Virus record (IMG/VR): IMGVR_UViG_3300032053_000274 | Span: 1-34,032 of that record | Reading direction: 5' to 3' (one strand) | Source of the DNA: a virus | Length of the DNA: 34,032 bases | Part shown: piece after piece, positions 1,197-31,487 of the stretch | Numbering within the stretch: the stretch's first letter is position 1 | How the letters are laid out: every line of letters starts with the position of its first letter | The notes under the pieces: model-generated | What the model saw: only the letters and a program-made list of their open reading frames with translations | Databases searched by the model: none | What the model was told of the DNA's origin: nothing | Position numbers and translations under genes: made by a program

Positions 1197-2345
1197 CTAC
1201 ACCATATCGAAAAAGTCACCCACTGTTTTCCACAGCGGGTGGCGCTCGCGGTCAATGCCCTTCAAATAGATCATCGTCGTGTTGACGTTGCTGTGGTGCA
1301 GCATCTGTTGAATCTGGATCAGGTCGGCGCCCTTGTGCTTGAGGAACAACGCCGCCGTGTGACGCAGCGTGTGCGTGTGGATGCGCGTCTCATCCAGCCC
1401 GGCGCGCCGGGCGATGTGTTTGACGATCTGGTTGACGCGCGCGCCGGTCAAGCAGCTCGGCCCATCCCGGGGCGGCAACGTGCGGCCGTTCTTTGCCGCC
1501 TTGCGCTCGGCCAGGCGCGTGCCCACGTCCGACAACGGCACAAAGATAATGTCATCCTTGCCCATCGTATCCAGCCGCTTGGCCGCCTGCAGGTAAACGC
1601 AGATCGCCTTGTACGCCGCCTCGGGCAATTCGTCCACGCCCTGCTTGGCCTTGCTCTCCCAGCGATAAAACACCACCTGGCCCTTGACCTCGATCGCGCC
1701 CCACGTCATCGTCGCGATCGCCGCCGAGCGCTGGCCCGTCGCAAAGATCGTCGAGATGAGAGCAAAGTCACGCAGGCCCGCCACGCTGGCGCGGTCGCAC
1801 GCCCGCAGCATCGCCATCATTTCATCCTCGGTCAAGCCGCCCGCCTTTTCGTTCTCGTAGGGATTGATCTTGGTGCGCGTGGCGGACTTGACGGGATTGC
1901 GCCCGCACAGGAACATTTCGGTGCGCGGGTTGCGTGGATCGGGAAACGAGAATTTGTGACACAGGAACTCGTACAGCGAGGATAGCCCGGCCAGGCGCAG
2001 GTTGATCGTTTGTTCGGAGAGGTCCGAGGCGCGCATCGAATTCTGCCAACTGATCACCTGGCTGCCCATCACGCGCCACATGGGAAAGCGGTCGCCGATG
2101 AACCCGTGGAACTCGTCCACCGAGCGCTGATAGGCCCGGCGGGTTTGCGTGCTGATCGTGTGGCCGTGCGAGCGCCAGCCGCCCGCAATCCATTGCTCGA
2201 ACGCGATCGGCCATATCTGTGCCTTGATCGCATCCTCGTCGCGGTCGTCCACGCCCAGCCCGGGCTGGAGCGGCGCATCGGGCATCACGACCCAGGAGGG
2301 AACCAATTCGGTTCTAGTAGCGGTTGCAGTTGCCAGCGTCATCAT
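1197..2345 (-). CDS. Second tyrosine recombinase (early operon)
   Basis: A 382-residue tyrosine recombinase. With the start at 2345 the catalytic set is R206 (ATGQRSAA), a Lys near 232-234 (WESKAKQG), H325 and R328 (HTLRHT), H350/351 (LHHSNV) and nucleophile Y360. The usual Glu after the first Arg is Ala here. An N-terminal SAM-like core-binding domain covers about residues 50-165. The start follows GGAG and overlaps the stop of the upstream zinc protein (TGATG); a second in-frame ATG at 2342 is equally possible. It is not next to attP and is transcribed with early genes, so it is unlikely to be the integrase for 5066-5107. It could resolve multimers, invert DNA or act in replication. Confidence 0.88.
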   Translation of the reverse strand: MMTLATATATRTELVPSWVVMPDAPLQPGLGVDDRDEDAIKAQIWPIAFEQWIAGGWRSHGHTISTQTRRAYQRSVDEFHGFIGDRFPMWRVMGSQVISWQNSMRASDLSEQTINLRLAGLSSLYEFLCHKFSFPDPRNPRTEMFLCGRNPVKSATRTKINPYENEKAGGLTEDEMMAMLRACDRASVAGLRDFALISTIFATGQRSAAIATMTWGAIEVKGQVVFYRWESKAKQGVDELPEAAYKAICVYLQAAKRLDTMGKDDIIFVPLSDVGTRLAERKAAKNGRTLPPRDGPSCLTGARVNQIVKHIARRAGLDETRIHTHTLRHTAALFLKHKGADLIQIQQMLHHSNVNTTMIYLKGIDRERHPLWKTVGDFFDMV

Positions 2346-2497
2346 CACTCCAACTCTCTCTGAGATTCTAGCCAAGCTTCATATTCCTCTGGGTAATTTT
2401 CTTTCCAATCTGCATAACCATCAGGGTCTTCGCATTTCGAACATTCGCAATCTGCGTAGCATTCCGATGTACTACCACATGACCAACACGGTTTCAT
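2345..2497 (-). CDS. Small Cys-rich zinc-binding protein
   Basis: A 50-residue protein that starts MKPCWSCGSTSECYADCECS and ends in an acidic helix (YPEEYEAWLESQRELE). Six cysteines in 20 residues suggest a zinc cluster. The start at 2497 is chosen because GAGG lies 5 nt upstream; a longer frame from 2536 would translate through the dyad element. The stop is fused to the start of the recombinase (TGATG). The family is unknown; an acidic, zinc-binding mini-protein could be a host-factor binder. Confidence 0.6.
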   Translation of the reverse strand: MKPCWSCGSTSECYADCECSKCEDPDGYADWKENYPEEYEAWLESQRELE

Positions 2498-3560: not shown

Positions 3561-3770
3561 CTACGCGCCGATGTTCCCAGCGGCACTTGCACCGCCGTTG
3601 GTGTCCGACTTTTCGGCGCCGTCCAGCGCAAGCTCTGGCATCTCTTCAATAAGTCTCTGAATGCCCGCGCTGAATTTTCGAATCTTCCAAAAGCGCATGA
3701 AGCGCTCGACCTTCTGAACCTGAGAAGGGTAGAGGGTAATGTTTTGAGCCGCTGCTTTTTCCTCTGACAT
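3561..3770 (-). CDS. Ribbon-helix-helix protein (early regulator)
   Basis: A 69-residue protein with an RHH (CopG/MetJ-type) layout: a short strand (NITLYPSQ), helix 1 (VQKVERFMRFWKI) and helix 2 (RKFSAGIQRLIEEMPEL), followed by a flexible Gly/Ala tail. It is the first gene of the early operon, behind a near-consensus promoter (3807-3835), and is divergent from the XRE repressor. That is the position of Cro in lambdoid phages, so it is a good candidate for the lytic partner of the immunity switch. The start has GGAG 6 nt upstream. The fold is from pattern, the role from position. Confidence 0.72.
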   Translation of the reverse strand: MSEEKAAAQNITLYPSQVQKVERFMRFWKIRKFSAGIQRLIEEMPELALDGAEKSDTNGGASAAGNIGA

Positions 3771-3806: not shown

Positions 3807-3835
3807 ATTTTACACCAAATAGCATAAAATGTCAA
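3807..3835 (-). promoter_or_regulatory. Early promoter with overlapping dyad operator
   Basis: On the minus strand the sequence has TTGACA (3835-3830), a 17-nt spacer and TAAAAT (3812-3807): a near-perfect sigma-70 promoter driving the RHH gene. ATTTTA and TAAAAT (3807-3812 and 3825-3830) form an inverted repeat with a 12-nt spacer that covers the -10 box, a likely operator. The plus-strand promoter for the repressor is not clear to me. Confidence 0.75.
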
Positions 3836-3867
3836 TAGGCAATTTTAGATTGAACCATAGGAATGGA

Positions 3868-4269
3868 ATGCCTGCTAGAATGAATTCAATGCCTAAAGTT
3901 GCTTTCGCAGATTGGCTTAGAGCGGAGCTTGCCGCAATAGATAGAACCCAGGCATGGCTATCACAAACATCAGGGCTGAGCCAGGGCTATCTCAGCAAGT
4001 TGATGAATCGTGAGAGGCTGGCAGGCCACGACGCCTGCACCGCCATTGCGAAGGCACTCGGCAAAAAAGACATCGAAGTAATGCGTGCGGCCGGACTTGC
4101 TGAGCCGGAGCCAGACAGCGATACCCCCAGCGCTCAAGATCTGCTCACCTATTTCTCGTCACTCATGCCCGACCATCAAGCGGACGTGATCGAACATGCA
4201 AAAGCCCTCTATGCGCTGGAGAAAAGCGAAAAACCGTATCGCGCTGTTGCTGCTGATTCAAAGTCTTAG
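3868..4269 (+). CDS. XRE-family repressor (cI-like)
   Basis: A 133-residue DNA-binding protein. The helix-turn-helix lies at about residues 17-55: RTQAWLSQTSGLSQGYLSKL then MNRERLAGHDACTAIAKALG. The C-terminal part (DLLTYFSSLMPDHQADVIEH) is a short helical dimerisation region. There is no LexA-type Ser/Lys peptidase domain, so RecA-driven self-cleavage is not expected. I chose the start at 3868 because AGGA lies 5 nt upstream; the frame also opens at 3829, with no Shine-Dalgarno. It faces the early promoter and leads the lysogeny operon, so it is the probable immunity repressor. Confidence 0.82.
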   Translation: MPARMNSMPKVAFADWLRAELAAIDRTQAWLSQTSGLSQGYLSKLMNRERLAGHDACTAIAKALGKKDIEVMRAAGLAEPEPDSDTPSAQDLLTYFSSLMPDHQADVIEHAKALYALEKSEKPYRAVAADSKS

Positions 4270-4805: not shown

Positions 4806-4894
4806 GGGTAGGGGCGCGGTCACCGCGCCCGTACACCGCGCCCGTACACCGCGCCCGTACACCGCGCCCGTACACCGCGCCCGTACACCGCGCT
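4802..4894. repeat. GTAGGGGCG repeat with 13-bp tandem array
   Basis: The element begins GTAGGGGTAGGGGCGCGG and runs into 5.6 copies of the 13-bp unit ACCGCGCCCGTAC (4822-4894). The pairs GCGCGGT/ACCGCGC can fold. It looks like a palindromic repeat whose right arm has been amplified by slippage, and the copy number may vary between isolates. Confidence 0.8.
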
Positions 4895-4920: not shown

Positions 4921-5065
4921 TAGCGCGAGGTCATGAATCGAGGTGAACTGAAGCGGGAAGAATAGAGCATCCTGTGAGAAAGTAACTCATCCAGGCCGGT
5001 GAGGGGGTAACATGTCCACAGACATGCTCGAGTGTCCGGAGGCGCTCAACTCCCCCAGTCTCAAA

Positions 5066-5110
<45 letters not shown>

Positions 5111-5115
5111 CACGG

Positions 5116-5161
5116 CCGGTGGACACAAGAGATAGCCCAAACCGTCTCTTGTGTCCACCGG
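5116..5161. other. 17-bp perfect hairpin beside attP
   Basis: CCGGTGGACACAAGAGA (5116-5132) and its exact reverse complement (5145-5161) flank a 12-nt loop. It begins 9 bases after the tRNA-derived core. It could be integrase or excisionase binding sites in inverted order, or a structured RNA after the restored tRNA. Confidence 0.7.
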
Positions 5162-5241
5162 TCGGCCAAAAGCGATATCGCCCCCCAGCGTGTGAGCATC
5201 CAACTCGCCCCGCTTCCGGTTCAAAAAAAAGCCCAAACCCA

Positions 5242-5275
5242 ATTATCTGAACGAGTTTCACATTATCAGAACAAG
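5242..5275 (+). repeat. Direct repeats in the attP arm
   Basis: ATTATCTGAACGAG (5242-5255) and ATTATCAGAACAAG (5262-5275) match at 12 of 14 positions and are spaced 20 bp, close to two helical turns. Their place between attP and the integrase fits arm-type integrase sites or operator sites. Confidence 0.5.
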
Positions 5276-5296
5276 CGTTCTCGAACCGGAGGCCAA

Positions 5297-6226
5297 ATGA
5301 ATACCCTATCACTCTCCAGATCAATCGAAGGATTCTTTCTCGAAGCGGGCGCCCGGCGGCTCAGCCCGAACACGATCCGCTTCTATCGCGCCATCCTGAC
5401 GCGCTTTCAAAAGTTTCTCGACGGCGATCCGCTCATGAGCGCGATCACCAAGGCCGACCTGCAGCGCTTCATGATCAGTCTCGAGCATCTCAGCAAAAAG
5501 ACGGCGCTCGGCCATCACGCTGGGCTATCCGCGCTATGGCGCTGGGCGCTCAGCGAAGCCCTCGTCGAGCGCAACCTGGTGCGCGAGATCCCCGCGCCAA
5601 TCCCCGAACAGCACACCATCATCCCCTTTACGCAAGTCGAGGTCAAAGCGTTGCTGGGCGCCGTGGACAAGAGCGCGCCCTATGCCAGGCCGGGCCAGCG
5701 CGAATGCCAGCACTCCAACCCGGAAGCGCTGCGCAATCGCGTCATCATCTACCTGCTGCTCGATACCGGCATTCGCGCGTCTGAATTGTGCGGGCTGCAC
5801 GTACGGAATCTCGATCTCAAAGCCCGCCACATCACGGTCATGGGGAAGGGAAGCAAGGAGCGGACGATCTACTTCTCAGAGAACACGGCCAAGATCATCT
5901 GGCGCTACCTGGCGCAGCGCTCCGATGAATCACTCGATGCCTGGATGTTTCCCGCCTGGCATTCCACCAGCCCGCTTGACGCGCGCGATCTCTACCACGT
6001 GCTGCATCGCATCGGCCAGCGCGCCGGCATCGCCGATGTGCACCCGCATCGTTTCAGACACACGTTCGCGATTCAATATCTTCGCAACCACGGCGACGTC
6101 TACACACTGCAGGCGGTCCTGGGCCACACTACGCTCGACATGGTCCGCCGCTACCTCGCCATCGCCCAAACCGATATCCAAGCCGCCCATCGCCTGGCCT
6201 CGCCAGTGGCCAACTGGCGGCTTTGA
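5297..6226 (+). CDS. int: Tyrosine integrase
   Basis: A 309-residue site-specific recombinase that should integrate the phage at tRNA-Pro. The full catalytic set is present: R160 (DTGIRASEL), K184 (GKGSKERT), H251 and R254 (HPHRFRHT), H277 (LGHTTLD) and nucleophile Y286. The N-terminal core-binding domain covers about residues 1-105 (LSPNTIRFYRAILTRFQKFL), XerC/D-like in style. I chose the start at 5297 because GGAGG lies 5 nt upstream; the longer frame from 5012 crosses attP. It converges with the tail-fibre gene, with only 9 nt between the stops and no visible terminator. Confidence 0.93.
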   Translation: MNTLSLSRSIEGFFLEAGARRLSPNTIRFYRAILTRFQKFLDGDPLMSAITKADLQRFMISLEHLSKKTALGHHAGLSALWRWALSEALVERNLVREIPAPIPEQHTIIPFTQVEVKALLGAVDKSAPYARPGQRECQHSNPEALRNRVIIYLLLDTGIRASELCGLHVRNLDLKARHITVMGKGSKERTIYFSENTAKIIWRYLAQRSDESLDAWMFPAWHSTSPLDARDLYHVLHRIGQRAGIADVHPHRFRHTFAIQYLRNHGDVYTLQAVLGHTTLDMVRRYLAIAQTDIQAAHRLASPVANWRL

Positions 6227-14318: not shown

Positions 14319-14403
14319 TGATAACGTTGATTACCAATGTAGGGGCGCGGTCCCCGCGCCCTCCGCGGTCCCCGCGCCCTCCGCGGTCTCCGCGCCCTCC
14401 GCG
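14319..14403 (-). promoter_or_regulatory. Leader module with three 18-bp tandem units
   Basis: The dyad (14319-14339, TGATAACGTTGATTACCAAT on the plus strand) is followed by GTAGGGGC and three tandem units of GCGGTCCCCGCGCCCTCC (14347-14364, 14365-14382, 14383-14400). The array runs exactly to the stop codon of the upstream gene (14404). Confidence 0.65.
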
Positions 14404-18127: not shown

Positions 18128-18132
18128 CCTAT

Positions 18133-18197
18133 TTTGTGAAGATACATTACCAATGTAGGGGCGCGGTCTCCGCGCCCTCCGCGGTCTCCGCGCCCTG
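18133..18197 (-). promoter_or_regulatory. Leader module with two palindrome units
   Basis: The dyad (18133-18154, TGTGAAGATACATTACCAAT on the plus strand) and two GTAGGGGCGCGG/CCGCGCCC-type units (18155-18197) fill the gap after the capsid gene stop (18203). Confidence 0.62.
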
Positions 18198-20883: not shown

Positions 20884-20934
20884 TTCTGTGAATCTACATT
20901 ACCAATACGGTAGGGGCGCGGTCTCCGCGCCCTC
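20884..20934 (-). promoter_or_regulatory. Leader module before the protease gene
   Basis: The clearest copy: the plus strand reads CTGTGAATCTACATTACCAA (within 20884-20908) followed by GTAGGGGCGCGGTCTCCGCG (from about 20911). It lies between the portal stop (20935) and the protease Shine-Dalgarno. Confidence 0.68.
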
Positions 20935-22986
20935 CTATCGGACCCCCGCCGTCATCGAACACCTGCAGTTGATGTCCTCCTCCGGCTCCCCGATCTGGCC
21001 CGGCGCAGGCCCTCGCCCGGCCCCCACCTCGAAATCCTCATCAATCTTGCGCGTCTGCCCATGCGCCTCGACGTGGGTGGGCCTCGTCCGCTCGTCCAAC
21101 CCGGCCAGCCACGTCTTCGATTCGACAACGTCGCTCTGCCGCCACGCCTCCAGCGTCCCGCCGTTCGCCGCCCCGATCACCTCGGTGCGCGCGATCGTCT
21201 CCGGCGTGCTGCGGATTCGCTCCGCCATCACGTCCAGCACGCGCTGCTCGAACTGGGGTATATTCTCGCCCGCCGCAATCCCTTCCTGTAGTGACGACTT
21301 CAGTCGTTCCCACGTCGTTTCATTCACCCGCTGCGCGAACCGCTGGGCGCGCCGCTCCAGGAATCGTGCCACCGCCGGCTGCGCCACGTCAAACGCCATC
21401 GTCAGCGCCAAATCCTCGAGCGCCTGCTGTCCCGCATCTTCCACGATCGTCAGCAGCACCGGCCGCGCCTCCGACCGGAACGCCTTGATCCACTGCGCCA
21501 TGTCGAACGGCTCAGCCGCCGCATCCTCCACCGACCGCGCAACTCGCTGCCGCAATCGAGCCAGCACGCTATCCTGCTGCCGGCGGAACAAATCCACAGT
21601 CACGCGCGTCACCTGCTTCTCGTAGCCCGTCGTCCGCCGCACGAATCGCGCAAAAAGCCTCTGGTGCTCGTCCGATCCGTAATCAATCGCGCGTGTCTGC
21701 CGAGGCGCCGTCTCCTCAGCCCCAGCCGATTCAGCAGGCGGTGCTGCCGGCGCGCCCGCTGGCGCCACCTCGCCACTATCCACCGGCAACAAGTTCGCCG
21801 GCGCCCACCACACGTCACCCCACGGCACTGGCTTCAGACCCTGTTCATCGCGCCACTCGTTGATCACAATCGCACCCGCGCCGATCTGTTCCTTGGCCCG
21901 CGTCCACTGCGCGCCTTCAGCCTCCTGGAGCACGCCGATCTCTGAGGCGTCGAACTCGGCCACGTCGGCCTGGTTCGGGAACATCGGCAGGAGTTGCTCG
22001 GTGATCTCCGTCGAGACGAATTTGCCTTGCGGCAACACGCAATTTTCCCACGCCGCCTTCAGCGCCGAGTTATAATTTTCGTAGGTGCGCTGGCCGCCCA
22101 CCAGGTCAATCGGCCAATGATACGCCCGGCAAATATCCTCCAGCGACCACTTCAGTCCGCCCAGGAACTCGGCCTCTTTCGGGTTGAACCCGACCGGCTT
22201 GACCTCGGCATCGAAGCGAAAGACCGCCCACCGGTGGGCCTTGTCCACGCCTCGGAGACGCCGCGCCAACGACTCCTCAATCGCCTTGGCTTGTTCGTCA
22301 TTGAATGTCTGACCCGATCGCGGCGACACCATCCCGCCCATTTGGATGCCGTTATCAAACAAATTCTTGTTCGACTTCATCCCCGCGCTCGCGTAATCTG
22401 CCGCCAGCCGTGCAGCAGCTAGTGGCGACAAGGGCGCGTACTCGTCGTTCGGATTCGGCAGCCGAATCCACATGACCTCGGTCGGCTTGTAAGCCACCTC
22501 GCGCACGCCATTTATTGGAAGATAGTAGTAGCCCGCAATGTACCGCTCCGGGTGCGGGATCACCCGAACACGATCCGGCCGCCCCCACCAGATCTCGCTC
22601 GGCGTCTGCACCCCGCTATCCCCGCGCTCCAAGAACCAAAAAGCCTGGCCCCATAAGCACAAGCTCAGTTCCGTCATCTCGATCAGCCGGTTGAACGTCC
22701 AAAAATTATTGACCTTCTTGAGCAGCGAATACAGCGGTCCGCTCATCACCTGTGACCGGTCGCCCTGCGCATTCAATTTGTAAAGCGCCAGCGGCAGCGA
22801 CGAGAGAAACTGCGCCCGCTGCGTCGCGCAGGCATACACGCCGTTGCTCGTGGCGATGTACTGGCCATACTCCGCGGGCGCCCACTCCTCGATCGGATGG
22901 CCCCATGCCTCGTCGGAGCGTTCCACCACGAGTGAGCCCAGCACAAACGCGCGCACTGCGTAACGAAGTCGATCAATGAGATTCAA
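20935..22986 (-). CDS. Portal protein fused to Mu gpF-like domain
   Basis: A 683-residue fusion. Residues 1 to about 400 are an HK97-type portal (LYSLLKKVNNFWTFNRLIEM, WGQAFWFLERG, VMWIRLPNPNDEYAPLSPLA, LKWSLEDICRAYHWPIDLVG). After an Ala/Pro linker (APAGAPAAPPAESAGAEE), residues about 440-683 form an SPP1 gp7/Mu gpF-type head morphogenesis domain with the hallmarks TIARTEVIGAANGG, DERTRPTHVEAHGQ and DINCRCSM. The portal is the DNA entry ring; gpF-like proteins are minor head components. The start codon is TTG (22986), GGAG 8 nt upstream. A 19-bp repeat also found at 7439-7457 lies in its 3' third. Confidence 0.88.
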   Translation of the reverse strand: MNLIDRLRYAVRAFVLGSLVVERSDEAWGHPIEEWAPAEYGQYIATSNGVYACATQRAQFLSSLPLALYKLNAQGDRSQVMSGPLYSLLKKVNNFWTFNRLIEMTELSLCLWGQAFWFLERGDSGVQTPSEIWWGRPDRVRVIPHPERYIAGYYYLPINGVREVAYKPTEVMWIRLPNPNDEYAPLSPLAAARLAADYASAGMKSNKNLFDNGIQMGGMVSPRSGQTFNDEQAKAIEESLARRLRGVDKAHRWAVFRFDAEVKPVGFNPKEAEFLGGLKWSLEDICRAYHWPIDLVGGQRTYENYNSALKAAWENCVLPQGKFVSTEITEQLLPMFPNQADVAEFDASEIGVLQEAEGAQWTRAKEQIGAGAIVINEWRDEQGLKPVPWGDVWWAPANLLPVDSGEVAPAGAPAAPPAESAGAEETAPRQTRAIDYGSDEHQRLFARFVRRTTGYEKQVTRVTVDLFRRQQDSVLARLRQRVARSVEDAAAEPFDMAQWIKAFRSEARPVLLTIVEDAGQQALEDLALTMAFDVAQPAVARFLERRAQRFAQRVNETTWERLKSSLQEGIAAGENIPQFEQRVLDVMAERIRSTPETIARTEVIGAANGGTLEAWRQSDVVESKTWLAGLDERTRPTHVEAHGQTRKIDEDFEVGAGRGPAPGQIGEPEEDINCRCSMTAGVR
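21289..21307. repeat. 19-bp intergenic-type repeat inside the portal gene
   Basis: TAGTGACGACTTCAGTCGT here is identical to the intergenic palindrome at 7439-7457. In the portal it encodes part of the helix ERLKSSLQEG. An exact 19-mer match is unlikely by chance in a genome of this size. Confidence 0.7.
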
Positions 22987-23301: not shown

Positions 23302-23335
23302 TGGTAACGGCAATTCACAGAACGGGCGCTAGCGC
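23302..23335 (-). promoter_or_regulatory. Leader module after the terminase gene
   Basis: The dyad reads TTCTGTGAATTGCCGTTACC on the minus strand (23302-23323). A GCGCTAGCGC palindrome (23326-23335) touches the terminase stop codon on its upstream side. Confidence 0.6.
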
Positions 23336-24555
23336 TAATACACCAGCTTCCCGATCAATACACCCGCCGTCGCTGCCCACCAAGCCAGCGCCAGCGACAT
23401 CACCATGTCGTCGTGCATCCCTTCCGGGGCGCTGTACGTCGTCCGATTCGTCACCGGGTTCATCTTCATTTGGTAGGCTTCCAGTTCTCCCACCAGATCC
23501 GGCAAATTCGGGAAAGCGATCTCGCGCTTCTCCATCGCCACAGCCAGCGCCTCGATCAAAGGTGGTTTGCTCGTCGCTGTCGTCGCAAACCCCACCACAG
23601 GCACGCCCAGACGCTGCAGTTGCTCCAAGATCGGCTCGCCCATCGCATTGCTCTCTGCCAGCACCTGGATCGCCTGCCATCGTTCGCACATCACCTTCAA
23701 TCGCTGTGCCTGGAGCATGTAATCCACCTGGTTGCTGCGCGCCACCTCAACCACGCGCCGCGCCTGCACATCCAACGCCGTGAACACGGTAAAATCGTTG
23801 CTCTTGCCCCAGTCCACGCCGATCACCACATCGCCGTGCGACGCTTTCGGGTCCACAGTCATGGGCACGCTCGCGCACTCACGCACCAGGCGAAACACCT
23901 CACCGCCCGACTCGATGAACTGCGCCAGCCACTCCTGCCTGAACGTGCGCTCGGTCACTCGAGCGCGAGCCAGCTCGAACGCCTTGCGGATCTGCGGCGA
24001 GGGATTGGCATTCGTCGGCGATTGCCACGACATGAAATCCGCCACGCTGGCCAGGCCGCGCTGGTATTCAGCATAAAACCAGTTCTTGCCCTTCGGCGTG
24101 CTGATGAGAATCGCGTCGCCATTATGATCGGCCAACGTCGGCTGAATGACATCCGTCCACGCCTCTTCGGCGATGCGGCTCGCTTCATCGGCAATGACCA
24201 GGTGAAACGCTTCACCGCGCATCGAGTCCGCATTCTCGGCCGAGTAAATGCCGAGCCGACCATGCCATAGCGAAAACGTCAGCTCGCGCTCAGAGCGATT
24301 GACCGATACGGCCTTGTCGCGCATGAGCGAGCCAACAGCATTCTCGGCCCAGCGCCACAGCGGCCGCGAATTTTTATACGTCGGCGCGATCCACGCGACC
24401 TGGGCGCCCTGGCTGGCCGCCGCGAGTGCGACGCATCCACCCAACACAGTTTTACCCCAGCGCCTACCCATCGCCAGGCACTTGATCTTGGCTGGATGGA
24501 TCGCTATCCGACTCTGATCCGCTCGTAAGCGGGGCAACCGCAACTCGATAGTCAA
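23335..24555 (-). CDS. terL: Terminase large subunit
   Basis: A 406-residue packaging motor. Walker A is GRRWGKT (30-36), Walker B is HLVIADEA with D123-E124, and the coupling-type phrase ILISTPKGKN follows. The C-terminal RNase-H-like nuclease has GVDWGKSNDFTVF (first Asp at about 246) and the final acidic pair HDDMVMSLA. The start is uncertain: the frame begins with TTG at 24555 and overlaps the small-subunit gene by 92 nt, but the residues before Walker A (LRADQSRIAIHPAKIKCLAM) look conserved, so an upstream start is needed. It drives DNA into the prohead and cuts it. Confidence 0.92.
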   Translation of the reverse strand: MTIELRLPRLRADQSRIAIHPAKIKCLAMGRRWGKTVLGGCVALAAASQGAQVAWIAPTYKNSRPLWRWAENAVGSLMRDKAVSVNRSERELTFSLWHGRLGIYSAENADSMRGEAFHLVIADEASRIAEEAWTDVIQPTLADHNGDAILISTPKGKNWFYAEYQRGLASVADFMSWQSPTNANPSPQIRKAFELARARVTERTFRQEWLAQFIESGGEVFRLVRECASVPMTVDPKASHGDVVIGVDWGKSNDFTVFTALDVQARRVVEVARSNQVDYMLQAQRLKVMCERWQAIQVLAESNAMGEPILEQLQRLGVPVVGFATTATSKPPLIEALAVAMEKREIAFPNLPDLVGELEAYQMKMNPVTNRTTYSAPEGMHDDMVMSLALAWWAATAGVLIGKLVY

Positions 24556-26231: not shown

Positions 26232-26257
26232 AGGCACAGCACATGGCAAGTGATTAG

Positions 26258-26286
26258 AGGATAGCACTCTTTTTCTGGTCTGTCAA
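26258..26286 (-). promoter_or_regulatory. Late promoter
   Basis: On the minus strand: TTGACA (26286-26281), a 17-nt spacer, TATCCT (26263-26258). The -35 box is perfect. It faces the late operon, with no gene between it and the terminator at 26194-26231. Confidence 0.78.
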
Positions 26287-26291
26287 GCTAT

Positions 26292-26316
26292 TTTGATAAT
26301 GTGCATTCATGAAACA
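26292..26316. promoter_or_regulatory. Degenerate dyad element upstream of the late promoter
   Basis: TGATAATGTGCATTCATGAA resembles the GATAAC-N4-ATTAC variant, in particular the copy at 17007-17024. It lies just upstream of the -35 box of the late promoter, where an activator or repressor could act. Confidence 0.4.
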
Positions 26317-26626
26317 GGAGACCACGTCCTAACTTCTTCAAATGGATATCCCTTCTTTCTCTTCACTTATTTCTTTATTCTTTTATTGTACCCCTACACG
26401 TGTGCGTTTGCACCAGTAGACTGGTGCGTTTACACCAGTAGCCCCGTGCACCGGTGCGCATGTCCACAGACATGCCGGTGCTTTCGCGCGCGTGTGCACC
26501 GGTGCGCCCGGCACAAAGAGAGCCGGTCAGCGAAGATCGCTTGACCGGCCTAAAAGTTACTGGTGTGTTTGTTGTGCGAATGCACCAGTAAAAACGTATT
26601 AATACGTTCTTACTGGTGCGTTTACA
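26294..26626. other. Non-coding control region, candidate replication origin
   Basis: There is no convincing gene in these 333 bases. Contents: an AT-rich pyrimidine tract (about 26345-26390); CACCAGTA or TACTGGTG at 26411, 26433, 26558, 26583 and 26611, with degenerate copies at 26420 and 26625; two GCACCGGTGC palindromes (26448-26457, 26496-26505); CATGTCCACAGACATG (about 26459-26474); a hairpin with GCCGGTCA/TGACCGGC arms (26522-26549); and the perfect palindrome AACGTATTAATACGTT. Iteron-like repeats beside an AT-rich tract, next to a gene for a DnaA-domain protein, suggest an origin. Confidence 0.6.
26522..26549 (-). terminator. Possible early-operon terminator hairpin
   Basis: GCCGGTCAGCGA (26522-26533) pairs with TCGCTTGACCGGC (26537-26549) apart from one bulged base. 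On the minus strand it is followed by TCTCTTTG, only a weak U-tract. It lies about 80 nt after the last early gene (stop 26627). Confidence 0.4.
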
Positions 26627-26830
26627 TCAGTAAACGAAACCCTCAAATAGCATCGAGGTGCGTCCGCATTTCGAGCATGTCGCATTTGGCTCAGGTGAGA
26701 GTCCACTTTCACTGACCATAATTGAATCGTCCGCTTTGACAAAGCGGCCACACCGGTCGCAGACGGGAACGAATGTTGCGCCCTCATCATAAACTACCCG
26801 TCTGACTCTGACACTCTCGTATTCATTCAT
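26627..26830 (-). CDS. Four-cysteine zinc-ribbon protein
   Basis: A 67-residue protein with two CxxC knuckles (CDRCGRFVKADDS at about 24-36 and CSKCGRTSMLF at about 52-62), a complete zinc ribbon. The ATG overlaps the stop of the DnaA-domain gene (TAATG). As the last gene before the late promoter it stands where lambda has Q, so an antiterminator or RNA-polymerase-binding role is worth testing. It has no other recognisable feature. Confidence 0.68.
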   Translation of the reverse strand: MNEYESVRVRRVVYDEGATFVPVCDRCGRFVKADDSIMVSESGLSPEPNATCSKCGRTSMLFEGFVY

Positions 26831-27654
26831 TACTGAGCCTCGAACCAATCCCGCGCATCGAATCCATGCGCATCAAGCCAGCGATCATGCCGCACCTGGA
26901 GCACGTCGGCAAGCTGCTTGACCTGCGCCGGGCACAGCAGCGGCAGCCGCGTCCGCACGCTCACCACATAGATCACGTGCGGCTCGACGCCCTGGCGCGA
27001 GACCTTACCGATCTCGTGCATGACAAGCCTATCAAATCCGCCGCCGTGATGATGCAACTGACCATCCCCATTCGAACGATTGACGCCCGTAACGGCCTGC
27101 TTGCCGCAGTTGATCTGCCCGGCCAGGGTCGGCGCCGTCCAGCGTTGATCCGGCGTCCACTCACCCTTCTCTTTGCGATGGTCCCCCTCGCGGATGATCT
27201 CCCAGATCGCCCAGCCCACGCGCCCCAGCAGCGGACGCCAGAATGACGACTCGTAAGCCGAGATGGGAAACCAGCCGGCCTCGTGCGTGTTGAACTCGAC
27301 CGGCACAAACGGACGCGGCGCAGCTGGCTCGGCAGGCTCTGCCCCCGTTGTTGTAATGGAACTTCTCAGAACGGACGGCGCCAGGTCGTTCGCGTGCTCC
27401 TGGACAACGAACCTCACCGCCACCGGCCGCCCCACAATCCCATCCAGCGTCCGCAGCACCATCGTCTGCAGCCGGTTCTCCAGCCACTCCTTCGCATGGT
27501 CGTTATGCACCCCAACCGTGAACACGCCATCTTCATACGCCAACAGATTCGACCGAGCCAGCCACGTGTTGAACGTCGCGCCGGTCAGTTGCAATTGCAA
27601 CTCGCCCAGCGCCGCCTGCCAGATCTGATCGGGATTGTCTAGTCTGTCAATCAT
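26830..27654 (-). CDS. DnaA domain-I protein, putative replication initiator
   Basis: A 274-residue protein. Residues about 8-85 match the N-terminal domain I of bacterial DnaA: IWQAALGELQLQLTGATFNT, LLAYEDGVFTVGVHNDHAKE, WLENRLQTMVLRTLDGIVG. The AAA+ ATPase and the DnaA DNA-binding domain are absent. Instead, after a Pro/Ala linker, there is a unique C-terminal half (RVGWAIWEIIREGDHR, APTLAGQINCGKQAVTGVNR) that looks like a winged-helix region. DnaA domain I contacts DnaB helicase and regulators, so this protein may recruit host helicase to a phage origin at 26294-26626. ATG start with a weak Shine-Dalgarno. Confidence 0.78.
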   Translation of the reverse strand: MIDRLDNPDQIWQAALGELQLQLTGATFNTWLARSNLLAYEDGVFTVGVHNDHAKEWLENRLQTMVLRTLDGIVGRPVAVRFVVQEHANDLAPSVLRSSITTTGAEPAEPAAPRPFVPVEFNTHEAGWFPISAYESSFWRPLLGRVGWAIWEIIREGDHRKEKGEWTPDQRWTAPTLAGQINCGKQAVTGVNRSNGDGQLHHHGGGFDRLVMHEIGKVSRQGVEPHVIYVVSVRTRLPLLCPAQVKQLADVLQVRHDRWLDAHGFDARDWFEAQ

Positions 27655-30839: not shown

Positions 30840-31475
30840 TCACCATCTCTCGTTCAAATCGGCGAGCCGCATTTCCTCAGCCAGGTCCACCGCGCCCGCG
30901 CGCCGCCGTTTCAAAAACTCCAACAAACGCTCATTCGTTCGCATCTCGGGCCACCAGCACGGCACGCCGATCTCGGCAAAGAATTTCTCCTCGGTCGGCG
31001 TCTCGAGCCGCTGCCCGCGCCGCCACAAGAAGCCATCCCGCATGGCCATGTCGAGCGGCATCGCCCCGCTCCAACTAATGCGCGTCACCAACGTCCGATT
31101 GAAATCCCCCGGCCCGGTGCGCACCGCCAGGTGCACGCCCCAATTATCCGCGTGCGCAAAATACAACTCGACCACCGCCGCCGTCGCCACGTGCACCAGG
31201 CGCTTGTAACGCGGCCCGTTGCGCTTCACCTGGTGATCCCACGCCATGTTCCCGCCCGCGATCATCTCCTCGATCACGCGCTCGATCATCGGCGCCGGCT
31301 TGGTATCGAACAAGTCCACCGCGCGATCCTCCATCACGGGGATCAACACGAACTCCAAATCGTGCGGCTCCGGGCGCTTGCGCCGCACCGACCCGGCCAC
31401 CTCGATGCGCTCGCACACCGGCCCCAACCGCTCGAGCAACTTGCCCGCCAACTCCTCAGCCACTGCCAGTTTCAT
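30840..31475 (-). CDS. PolX-like nucleotidyltransferase
   Basis: A 211-residue protein matching the palm and thumb of family X DNA polymerases. The Pol-beta motif VAGSVRRKRPEPHDLEFV has G28-S29 and the acidic pair D39/E41; the third metal ligand would be E103 (VVELYFA). The later region (NWGVHLAVRTGPGDFN, then TPTEEKFFAEIGV and a PEMR phrase) follows the PolX 'GS..fN..lr ... EE..F..lgl..i.PelR' order. No 8-kDa or PHP domain is present. Two of the three metal ligands appear to be Glu rather than Asp. The start at 31475 follows GAGG. A repair, gap-filling or nucleotide-transfer role is likely. Confidence 0.75.
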   Translation of the reverse strand: MKLAVAEELAGKLLERLGPVCERIEVAGSVRRKRPEPHDLEFVLIPVMEDRAVDLFDTKPAPMIERVIEEMIAGGNMAWDHQVKRNGPRYKRLVHVATAAVVELYFAHADNWGVHLAVRTGPGDFNRTLVTRISWSGAMPLDMAMRDGFLWRRGQRLETPTEEKFFAEIGVPCWWPEMRTNERLLEFLKRRRAGAVDLAEEMRLADLNERW

Positions 31476-31487
31476 GCCATGCCTCAC

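Follow-up and report, generated by a model that had tools for sequence, protein, structure and literature searches.

A probable phage replication initiator that joins DnaA domain I to a predicted winged helix beside a repeat array

The Locus and Its Phage Genome

The window analyzed here is the whole of the virus record IMGVR_UViG_3300032053_000274 (34,032 bp), and the coordinates of its features are given in Table 1. At the locus of interest, a leftward gene encodes a 274-aa protein composed of a DnaA domain I, a linker, and a predicted winged helix, and an array of repeats lies about 200 bp past its 3′ end, in the noncoding region 26268–26634. The first and last 127 nt of the record are identical, as would be expected of a genome of about 33.9 kb that is circular or terminally redundant and nearly complete or, equally, of an assembly k-mer overlap. 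The leftward genes include those for the terminase, the portal, and the tape measure protein, and the genome also carries two different tyrosine integrases and a ParB-like protein, for which no ParA partner was found; a similar ParB occurs in the records of L007, L132, L133, and L134. The host probably belongs to the Anaerolineae, as judged from sequence, because a metagenome-assembled genome (MAG) titled Anaerolinea sp. contains a relative of the portal (52% identity) and because domain I shares up to 64% identity with that of chromosomal DnaA proteins of Anaerolineae.

Table 1. Positions of the features discussed in the text, numbered along the window.
Feature	Position	Strand	Remarks
Putative initiator gene (274 aa; DnaA domain I, linker, winged helix)	26830..27654	-	ATG ORF; homologue under selection; AlphaFold model
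DnaA domain I, about residues 10–86	27397..27627	-	PF11638; 4TPS; identity to Anaerolineae DnaA
Linker, about residues 87–128	27271..27396	-	pLDDT <50; fastest-evolving part; 59% amino-acid identity
Predicted winged-helix DNA-binding domain, about residues 129–264	26863..27270	-	Profile, hhalign, and fold matches
Small ORF containing CxxC motifs and separating the initiator gene from the repeats	26627..26848	-	Sub-threshold zinc-ribbon matches only
Candidate origin repeat array	26396..26634		Dyads 26397–26418, 26419–26440, 26569–26590, 26611–26632
Exact half-sites CACCAGTA	26411, 26433, 26558(-), 26583, 26611(-)		Within the array
Inverted repeat, 22-nt arms, no spacer	26579..26622		Arms 91% complementary and ending in half-sites; kept in L080
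AT-rich stretch next to the repeats (candidate unwinding element)	26248..26393		GC 0.356 vs. 0.596 for the genome
Terminase	23335–24555	leftward	
Portal	20935–22986	leftward	
Tyrosine integrase	5012–6226	+	One of two
Tyrosine integrase	1197–2375	-	Second of two
ParB-like protein, 646 aa	31852–33792	-	Profile matches

Several other elements were observed in the genome. A GC-rich element, about 50 bp long and containing CGCGGTCTCCGCGCCCTC-type units, occurs at 722–772, 14346–14403, 18129–18196, and 20884–20935, and once in L007. At 4821–4893, a 13-bp unit (CACCGCGCCCGTA) is repeated exactly in tandem, with 5.6 copies. The most AT-rich stretch of the genome (3755–3900) lies upstream of a helix-turn-helix, repressor-like gene (3829–4269, + strand). 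A fragment resembling a Pol-X nucleotidyltransferase is encoded at 30840–31487 (- strand; DNA_pol_B_thumb match below the cut-off), and L132 has a similar frame immediately upstream of its initiator gene. A simple Walker A pattern, which misses the terminase, hit only one string in the window, in the portal region.

A DnaA Domain I Without the Rest of DnaA

The original prediction, that the N-terminal 80 residues or so resemble DnaA domain I and that the AAA+ and DNA-binding domains of DnaA are replaced, was borne out on both points. Residues 10–65 match DnaA_N (PF11638) with 33.3 bits, above its gathering cut-off of 24.6, and residues 6–85 align over 80 residues with domain I of Bacillus subtilis DnaA (4TPS; phmmer, E = 1.9e-9), which is also a structural match of the model (VIA, Z = 15.2 over 82 residues). 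By contrast, the NCBIfam DnaA profile (TIGR00362) is aligned at positions 1–85 of 437 only, the AAA+ domain III with its Walker A motif is absent from the 274-aa protein, and a Pfam search of the protein gave no match to the helix-turn-helix of domain IV (Bac_DnaA_C). The AlphaFold model was built from six sequences and has a mean pLDDT of 75, with about 85–90 in the domains; an earlier two-sequence model was poor (pLDDT 42) and was set aside.

The related phage IMGVR_UViG_3300018055_000003 (L007/L080), with 90% identity in the portal, encodes a homologue that is 81% identical at the protein level. Between the two genes, dN/dS (NG86) is 0.10 in domain I, 0.39 in the linker, and 0.20 in the C-terminal domain. 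These low values indicate that both domains are kept by selection and that the gene is real and not a chance frame; the linker varies while both domains stay conserved, as occurs in DnaA.

The C-Terminal Half as a Predicted Winged Helix

Searched alone against Pfam, PHROG, and NCBIfam, the C-terminal half gave zero matches, and solved structures, searched by sequence with a profile of the C domain, likewise returned nothing meaningful. Its initial description as an unknown domain nevertheless has to be revised, since profile–profile alignment and fold matches identify a winged helix akin to the DNA-binding domains of replication initiators. In hhalign, the C-domain family matches the Rep of Brevibacillus phage Jenst and its kin together with a group of Bacillota plasmid proteins (probability 97.5, E = 6.8e-12). 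These Jenst-type and plasmid proteins themselves match HTH_36 and DnaA_N, and the Jenst protein additionally matches replication-O-like and DnaD-like PHROGs. In the structural comparison (VIA), residues 130–264 of the model are similar to 4pql (Z = 8.5), to 5kbj, a “Rep-DNA complex” (7.3), to pPS10 RepA (7.2), and to the DnaB primosome protein 5wtn (6.9). The alignments with 4pql and 5kbj, which have a RepA_N-type fold that Pfam does not report here, cover 105–107 residues with an rmsd of 5.5–6.7; Z scores near 7–8 are not decisive alone, and it is their agreement with the profile result that counts. The best viral fold match, a weak one (E = 2.8e-3), is the initiator of Brevibacillus phage SecTim467. 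By these comparisons, the C-terminal half is a predicted winged helix homologous to the DNA-binding part of Jenst-type initiators, and the simplest view of the protein is therefore that it initiates replication of the phage itself.

An Iteron-Like Array Beside the Gene

The array, which the original prediction leaves unmentioned, contains four 22-bp dyads of the form TACTGGTG-N6-CACCAGTA with at most three mismatches, against 0.02 expected, and two neighboring dyads have a spacing of 22 bp. The exact half-site CACCAGTA occurs five times in the 34-kb genome (0.28 expected), and all five copies fall within 208 bp (26411–26618). The adjoining AT-rich stretch is the second lowest in GC among the distinct 146-nt windows of the genome, after that at 3755. 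Taken together, the array and the AT-rich stretch have the arrangement by which iterons are recognized, that is, specific repeats clustered near the gene beside AT-rich DNA. The repeat part is 91% identical to that of L080, compared with 78% for the initiator gene. L080 has no counterpart of the small ORF at 26627–26848, and its initiator gene ends inside the array; the small ORF is possibly an insertion. DnaA boxes in the window number three, against 3.8 expected, and so are not above chance; binding of host DnaA at the origin is therefore not indicated.

Relatives and Domain Arrangements

A single-protein scan of viral and genome contigs for close relatives returned nothing, as did a scan with a Leptolinea plasmid protein as the query, and relatives were reached through kin of the portal and terminase and then by profile searches. 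They are found in phages, a plasmid, and Anaerolineae genomes. DnaA_N was detected in only two (L007 and L008) of the 45 records related by portal or terminase, so that possession of the gene varies within this phage group. Profile A5 of the C domain, which was built from two phages, found homologues (E ≤ 1e-3) in 11 of 298 Anaerolineae genomes. Most of these frames also contain DnaA_N, in three arrangements: domain I followed by a single C domain, as in the window (L097, L100, L102); domain I followed by two C domains (L092, L093); and the C domain first with domain I last (L094, L095, L096, L098, L101). Of the last group, L094 and L095 hit phrog_26369 in its winged-helix portion (2e-10). When three members with the reversed order served as queries, no viral relative was found. 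Further phage records have domain I first (L126, L131, L132, L136), and other phage proteins have domain I last behind different N-terminal halves (L127, L129, L133, L134, L135), which, on reading their sequences, appear helix-turn-helix-like and DNA-binding. The MAG G047 is titled Omnitrophota; in 58 genomes from its phylum, the hits were confined to domain I of longer frames, and no full-length relative was found.

Some other DnaA_N frames were noted during these searches. G047 itself contains a portal relative and a second, Anaerolineae-like DnaA_N frame on a small contig (L082, L090), possibly by binning contamination. Chromosomal DnaA_N proteins of 659–716 aa without a Walker A motif are encoded in Anaerolineae (L113:693–2669, L114:1209–3185, L115:2766–4913), with repeats such as SGFETL or DANGSHM within the frame, and G077 has two near-identical copies of such a gene.

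Repeats at the Relatives' Loci

Clusters of repeats, for which a single 8-mer had to occur four times in 250 bp, in the gene or at most 600 bp from it, were found at 16 of 25 loci, whereas shifting the gene to other positions along each locus gave an expectation of 8.3 (P = 5e-5); this P value is indicative, since the criterion was chosen once the loci had been inspected, short loci have a high null rate, and some of the loci are related. No cluster was found by this criterion at L134, L002, L116, and L124. The position of the array varies: L126, L131, and L136 have dyad arrays with a 22-bp period right at the stop codon, L127 and L129 have the array inside the coding region between the domains, and L003, L122, and L123 have it upstream of the gene. 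The dyads are GGTTGTGAAATTTCACAACC in L119, GGCGGTTCTCGAACCGCC in L123, and TTGCGACACCGTGTCGCAA in L102, the last lying within the reading frame. As a separate observation, L102:1807–1914 holds a 30-bp dyad repeat that is in frame (CDTVSQLGAE units) and lies where the C-terminus of the DnaA_N fusion is encoded, an iteron-like array in a coding region.

The L132 protein is 46% identical to that of the window and similar to it in the segment CG(K/R)QA(V/L)xGVNRS, in the region of the recognition helix. In the first noncoding gap downstream, L132 has GGTG-N6-CACC dyads 22 bp apart, with the same core as in the window, and it is alone among 174 loci in having two such dyads within 60 bp. L126, L131, and L136 have (D/N)R..I.GR in the same segment and the half-sites CTTATG/CTTGTG. 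This matching of protein subgroup to site, in which the repeat core tracks the winged-helix subgroup, suggests that the C domain reads the repeats; it is the best evidence on this point, drawn from few cases and from an unplanned comparison.

Origin of Domain I

Placing all fusions in one clade is rejected (p-AU = 0.0009 with 18 fusion and 35 DnaA domains; 0.001 in the first set), and a single clade of the domain-I-first proteins alone is not (p = 0.17), in a tree of 81 columns with many unresolved forks. For five of the nine fusions that could be paired, domain I of the DnaA of the same genome is the closest of 52, in a DnaA sample picked partly by similarity to the window and with the paired hosts deliberately added. 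Because the fusions do not form one clade and often match the DnaA of their own genome, the data suggest repeated acquisition of domain I from the host, or ongoing exchange. Related phages and plasmids appear to have assembled the domain pair several times.

Recruitment of the Host Helicase

In Escherichia coli, DnaA domain I binds DnaB through Glu21 and Phe46 and dimerizes through Trp6 (PMC5448010), and in B. subtilis DnaA, Thr26, Trp27, and Phe49 are needed for recruitment of DnaD and hence of the helicase (PMC10201431). W12, T30, and W31 of the window protein occupy the positions of B. subtilis W8, T26, and W27, all of which are thus kept. The position of B. subtilis F49 and E. coli F46 is taken by His53; the related phage has Tyr there, and almost all Anaerolineae DnaA proteins, like nearly all related domains, have Tyr or Phe. 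The Thr-Trp pair of the helicase-recruiting face is retained in the phage proteins with domain I first. On the other hand, several recruitment residues are lost in the domain-I-last proteins of Anaerolineae, and for this reason domain I of the latter may have another role or be decaying. No DnaB_C protein and no IstB/DnaC-like protein was found in 11 phage records carrying such fusions. With a host-like domain I, a conserved Thr-Trp pair, and no phage DnaB-type helicase or DnaC-type loader found, the idea that the phage borrows the helicase-recruiting part of host DnaA is the best reading of these features.

A Replication Initiator and Its Alternatives

It is proposed, with a probability of about 0.78, that the protein is a replication initiator of the phage, which would bind the dyad origin and recruit the host helicase via domain I; the proposal is based on the domain identities, the selection on both domains, the conserved repeats nearby, the recurrence of the pairing, and the lack of a detected DnaB-type helicase or DnaC-type loader. 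A feasible model may be that the C-terminal winged helix binds the 22-bp dyads, probably as a dimer, that the dyads and the adjacent AT-rich stretch constitute the phage origin, in which the latter would melt, and that domain I, held on a flexible linker, recruits the replicative helicase of the host, either by contacting DnaB directly or via a host loader, as in DnaA. As a family, these proteins are Anaerolineae-type relatives of the Jenst-type initiators, with the domains permuted. His53 at the Phe position and the four loci without a cluster count against this proposal, as does the location of the repeats upstream of the leftward lysis and packaging genes, a possible place for operators.

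That location could instead mean that the protein is a transcription regulator, with its winged helix on late-gene operators and domain I serving only in oligomerization. Winged helices are common among regulators, DnaA itself also regulates transcription, and the repeats are intergenic between the initiator gene and a leftward gene starting at 26267, where a promoter would be expected. This explanation is nevertheless unlikely, given that the relatives' arrays track the gene, at its 3′ side, inside it, or at its 5′ side, with no fixed neighbor, that the closest named relatives are annotated as replication initiators, and that the helicase-recruiting Thr-Trp pair is kept in the phage proteins with the domain order of the window. 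The chance that the repeats are unrelated to the initiator, being instead parS sites bound by the phage ParB or the operators of a different regulator, seems slimmer. parS sites are dyads, and ParB is encoded both here and in four of the related records; yet the records of L131 and L136, which may be incomplete, have strong arrays and no ParB match, and the repeat core tracks the winged-helix subgroup. Either of these possible readings would explain less than an initiator does.

The suggestion that the protein is a dominant competitor of host initiation, its domain I titrating host DnaB or the partners of DnaA, found no positive support and is the least probable of all. The likeness of domain I to that of host-type DnaA (up to 64% identity) would suit such a role, and there is a precedent for inhibition of initiation by a prophage in YfdR, which inhibits initiation in E. 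coli by binding DnaA domain I (PMC5448010); YfdR, however, binds domain I and does not copy it. A pure competitor would need neither a conserved DNA-binding domain (dN/dS 0.20) nor repeats, and its presence on plasmids and in host chromosomes would be odd. The repeats and the pairing of the domains in plasmids and phages point instead to a function for the replicon, and a side effect of the initiator on host initiation is possible.

Comparison with Known Systems and Implications

The nearest known counterparts are the initiators of phrog_26369, from the Brevibacillus phages Jenst and SecTim467, which combine a homologous winged helix with DnaA domain I and have repeats near the gene, as in the window. 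Residues 22–84 of the window protein match the C-terminal residues 282–346 of phrog_26369 (E = 5.3e-6), and the winged-helix homology holds for the window protein at the level of its family only. The order is reversed in phrog_26369, with the winged helix first and domain I last, and its domain I is of the Bacillota type, whereas that of the window is of the Anaerolineae type. Plasmids of Thermobacillus and Paenibacillus encode a “helix-turn-helix domain-containing protein” with a winged helix and DnaA domain I, adjoined by direct repeats (GTCACAAA); these are Bacillota plasmids and, unlike in the window, domain I is at the C-terminus. A plasmid of Leptolinea sp. HRD-7, which has an Anaerolineae host, encodes hrd7_34450, in which domain I precedes a linker and a C domain that may be related; however, the C-terminal similarity is non-significant by BLASTP, and no repeat cluster was found nearby. 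Bacterial DnaA shares domain I, including the W, T, and W of the dimerization and recruitment faces, and differs in its AAA+ ATPase and in domain IV, which has another DNA-binding fold; its boxes are not above chance in the window. Winged-helix plasmid initiators (pPS10 RepA; 5kbj and its N domain 4pql) have a similar DNA-binding fold, origin repeats, and no helicase of their own, but they show no sequence match and have no DnaA domain I, and their Z scores of 7.2–8.5 may reflect a common arrangement. A literature search yielded no description of DnaA domain I fused to a phage or plasmid winged helix, which is weak evidence of novelty because subscription journals were mostly uncovered. Multicopy hypothetical genes with DnaA_N have been described in the RAGE elements of Orientia (PMC10732058).

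It is also tempting to speculate, at somewhat less than even odds, that DnaA domain I serves as an adaptor that is portable and matched to the host: in the Anaerolineae and, separately, in the Bacillota, phages and plasmids would repeatedly have joined domain I of their current host's DnaA to replicon-specific winged helices, in either order, so as to load the host helicase without an AAA+ domain of their own. If the initiator reading is true, these proteins would be a natural experiment in which domain I and a site-specific DNA-binding domain suffice for helicase recruitment without the DnaA ATPase, and they would allow the function of domain I to be tested directly in a phylum where hardly any replication biochemistry has been done. 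They would also account for phage and plasmid proteins annotated as “hypothetical” or “helix-turn-helix” and would supply candidate origins for uncultured phages. Furthermore, because domain I tracks host DnaA, it may serve as a marker for host prediction.
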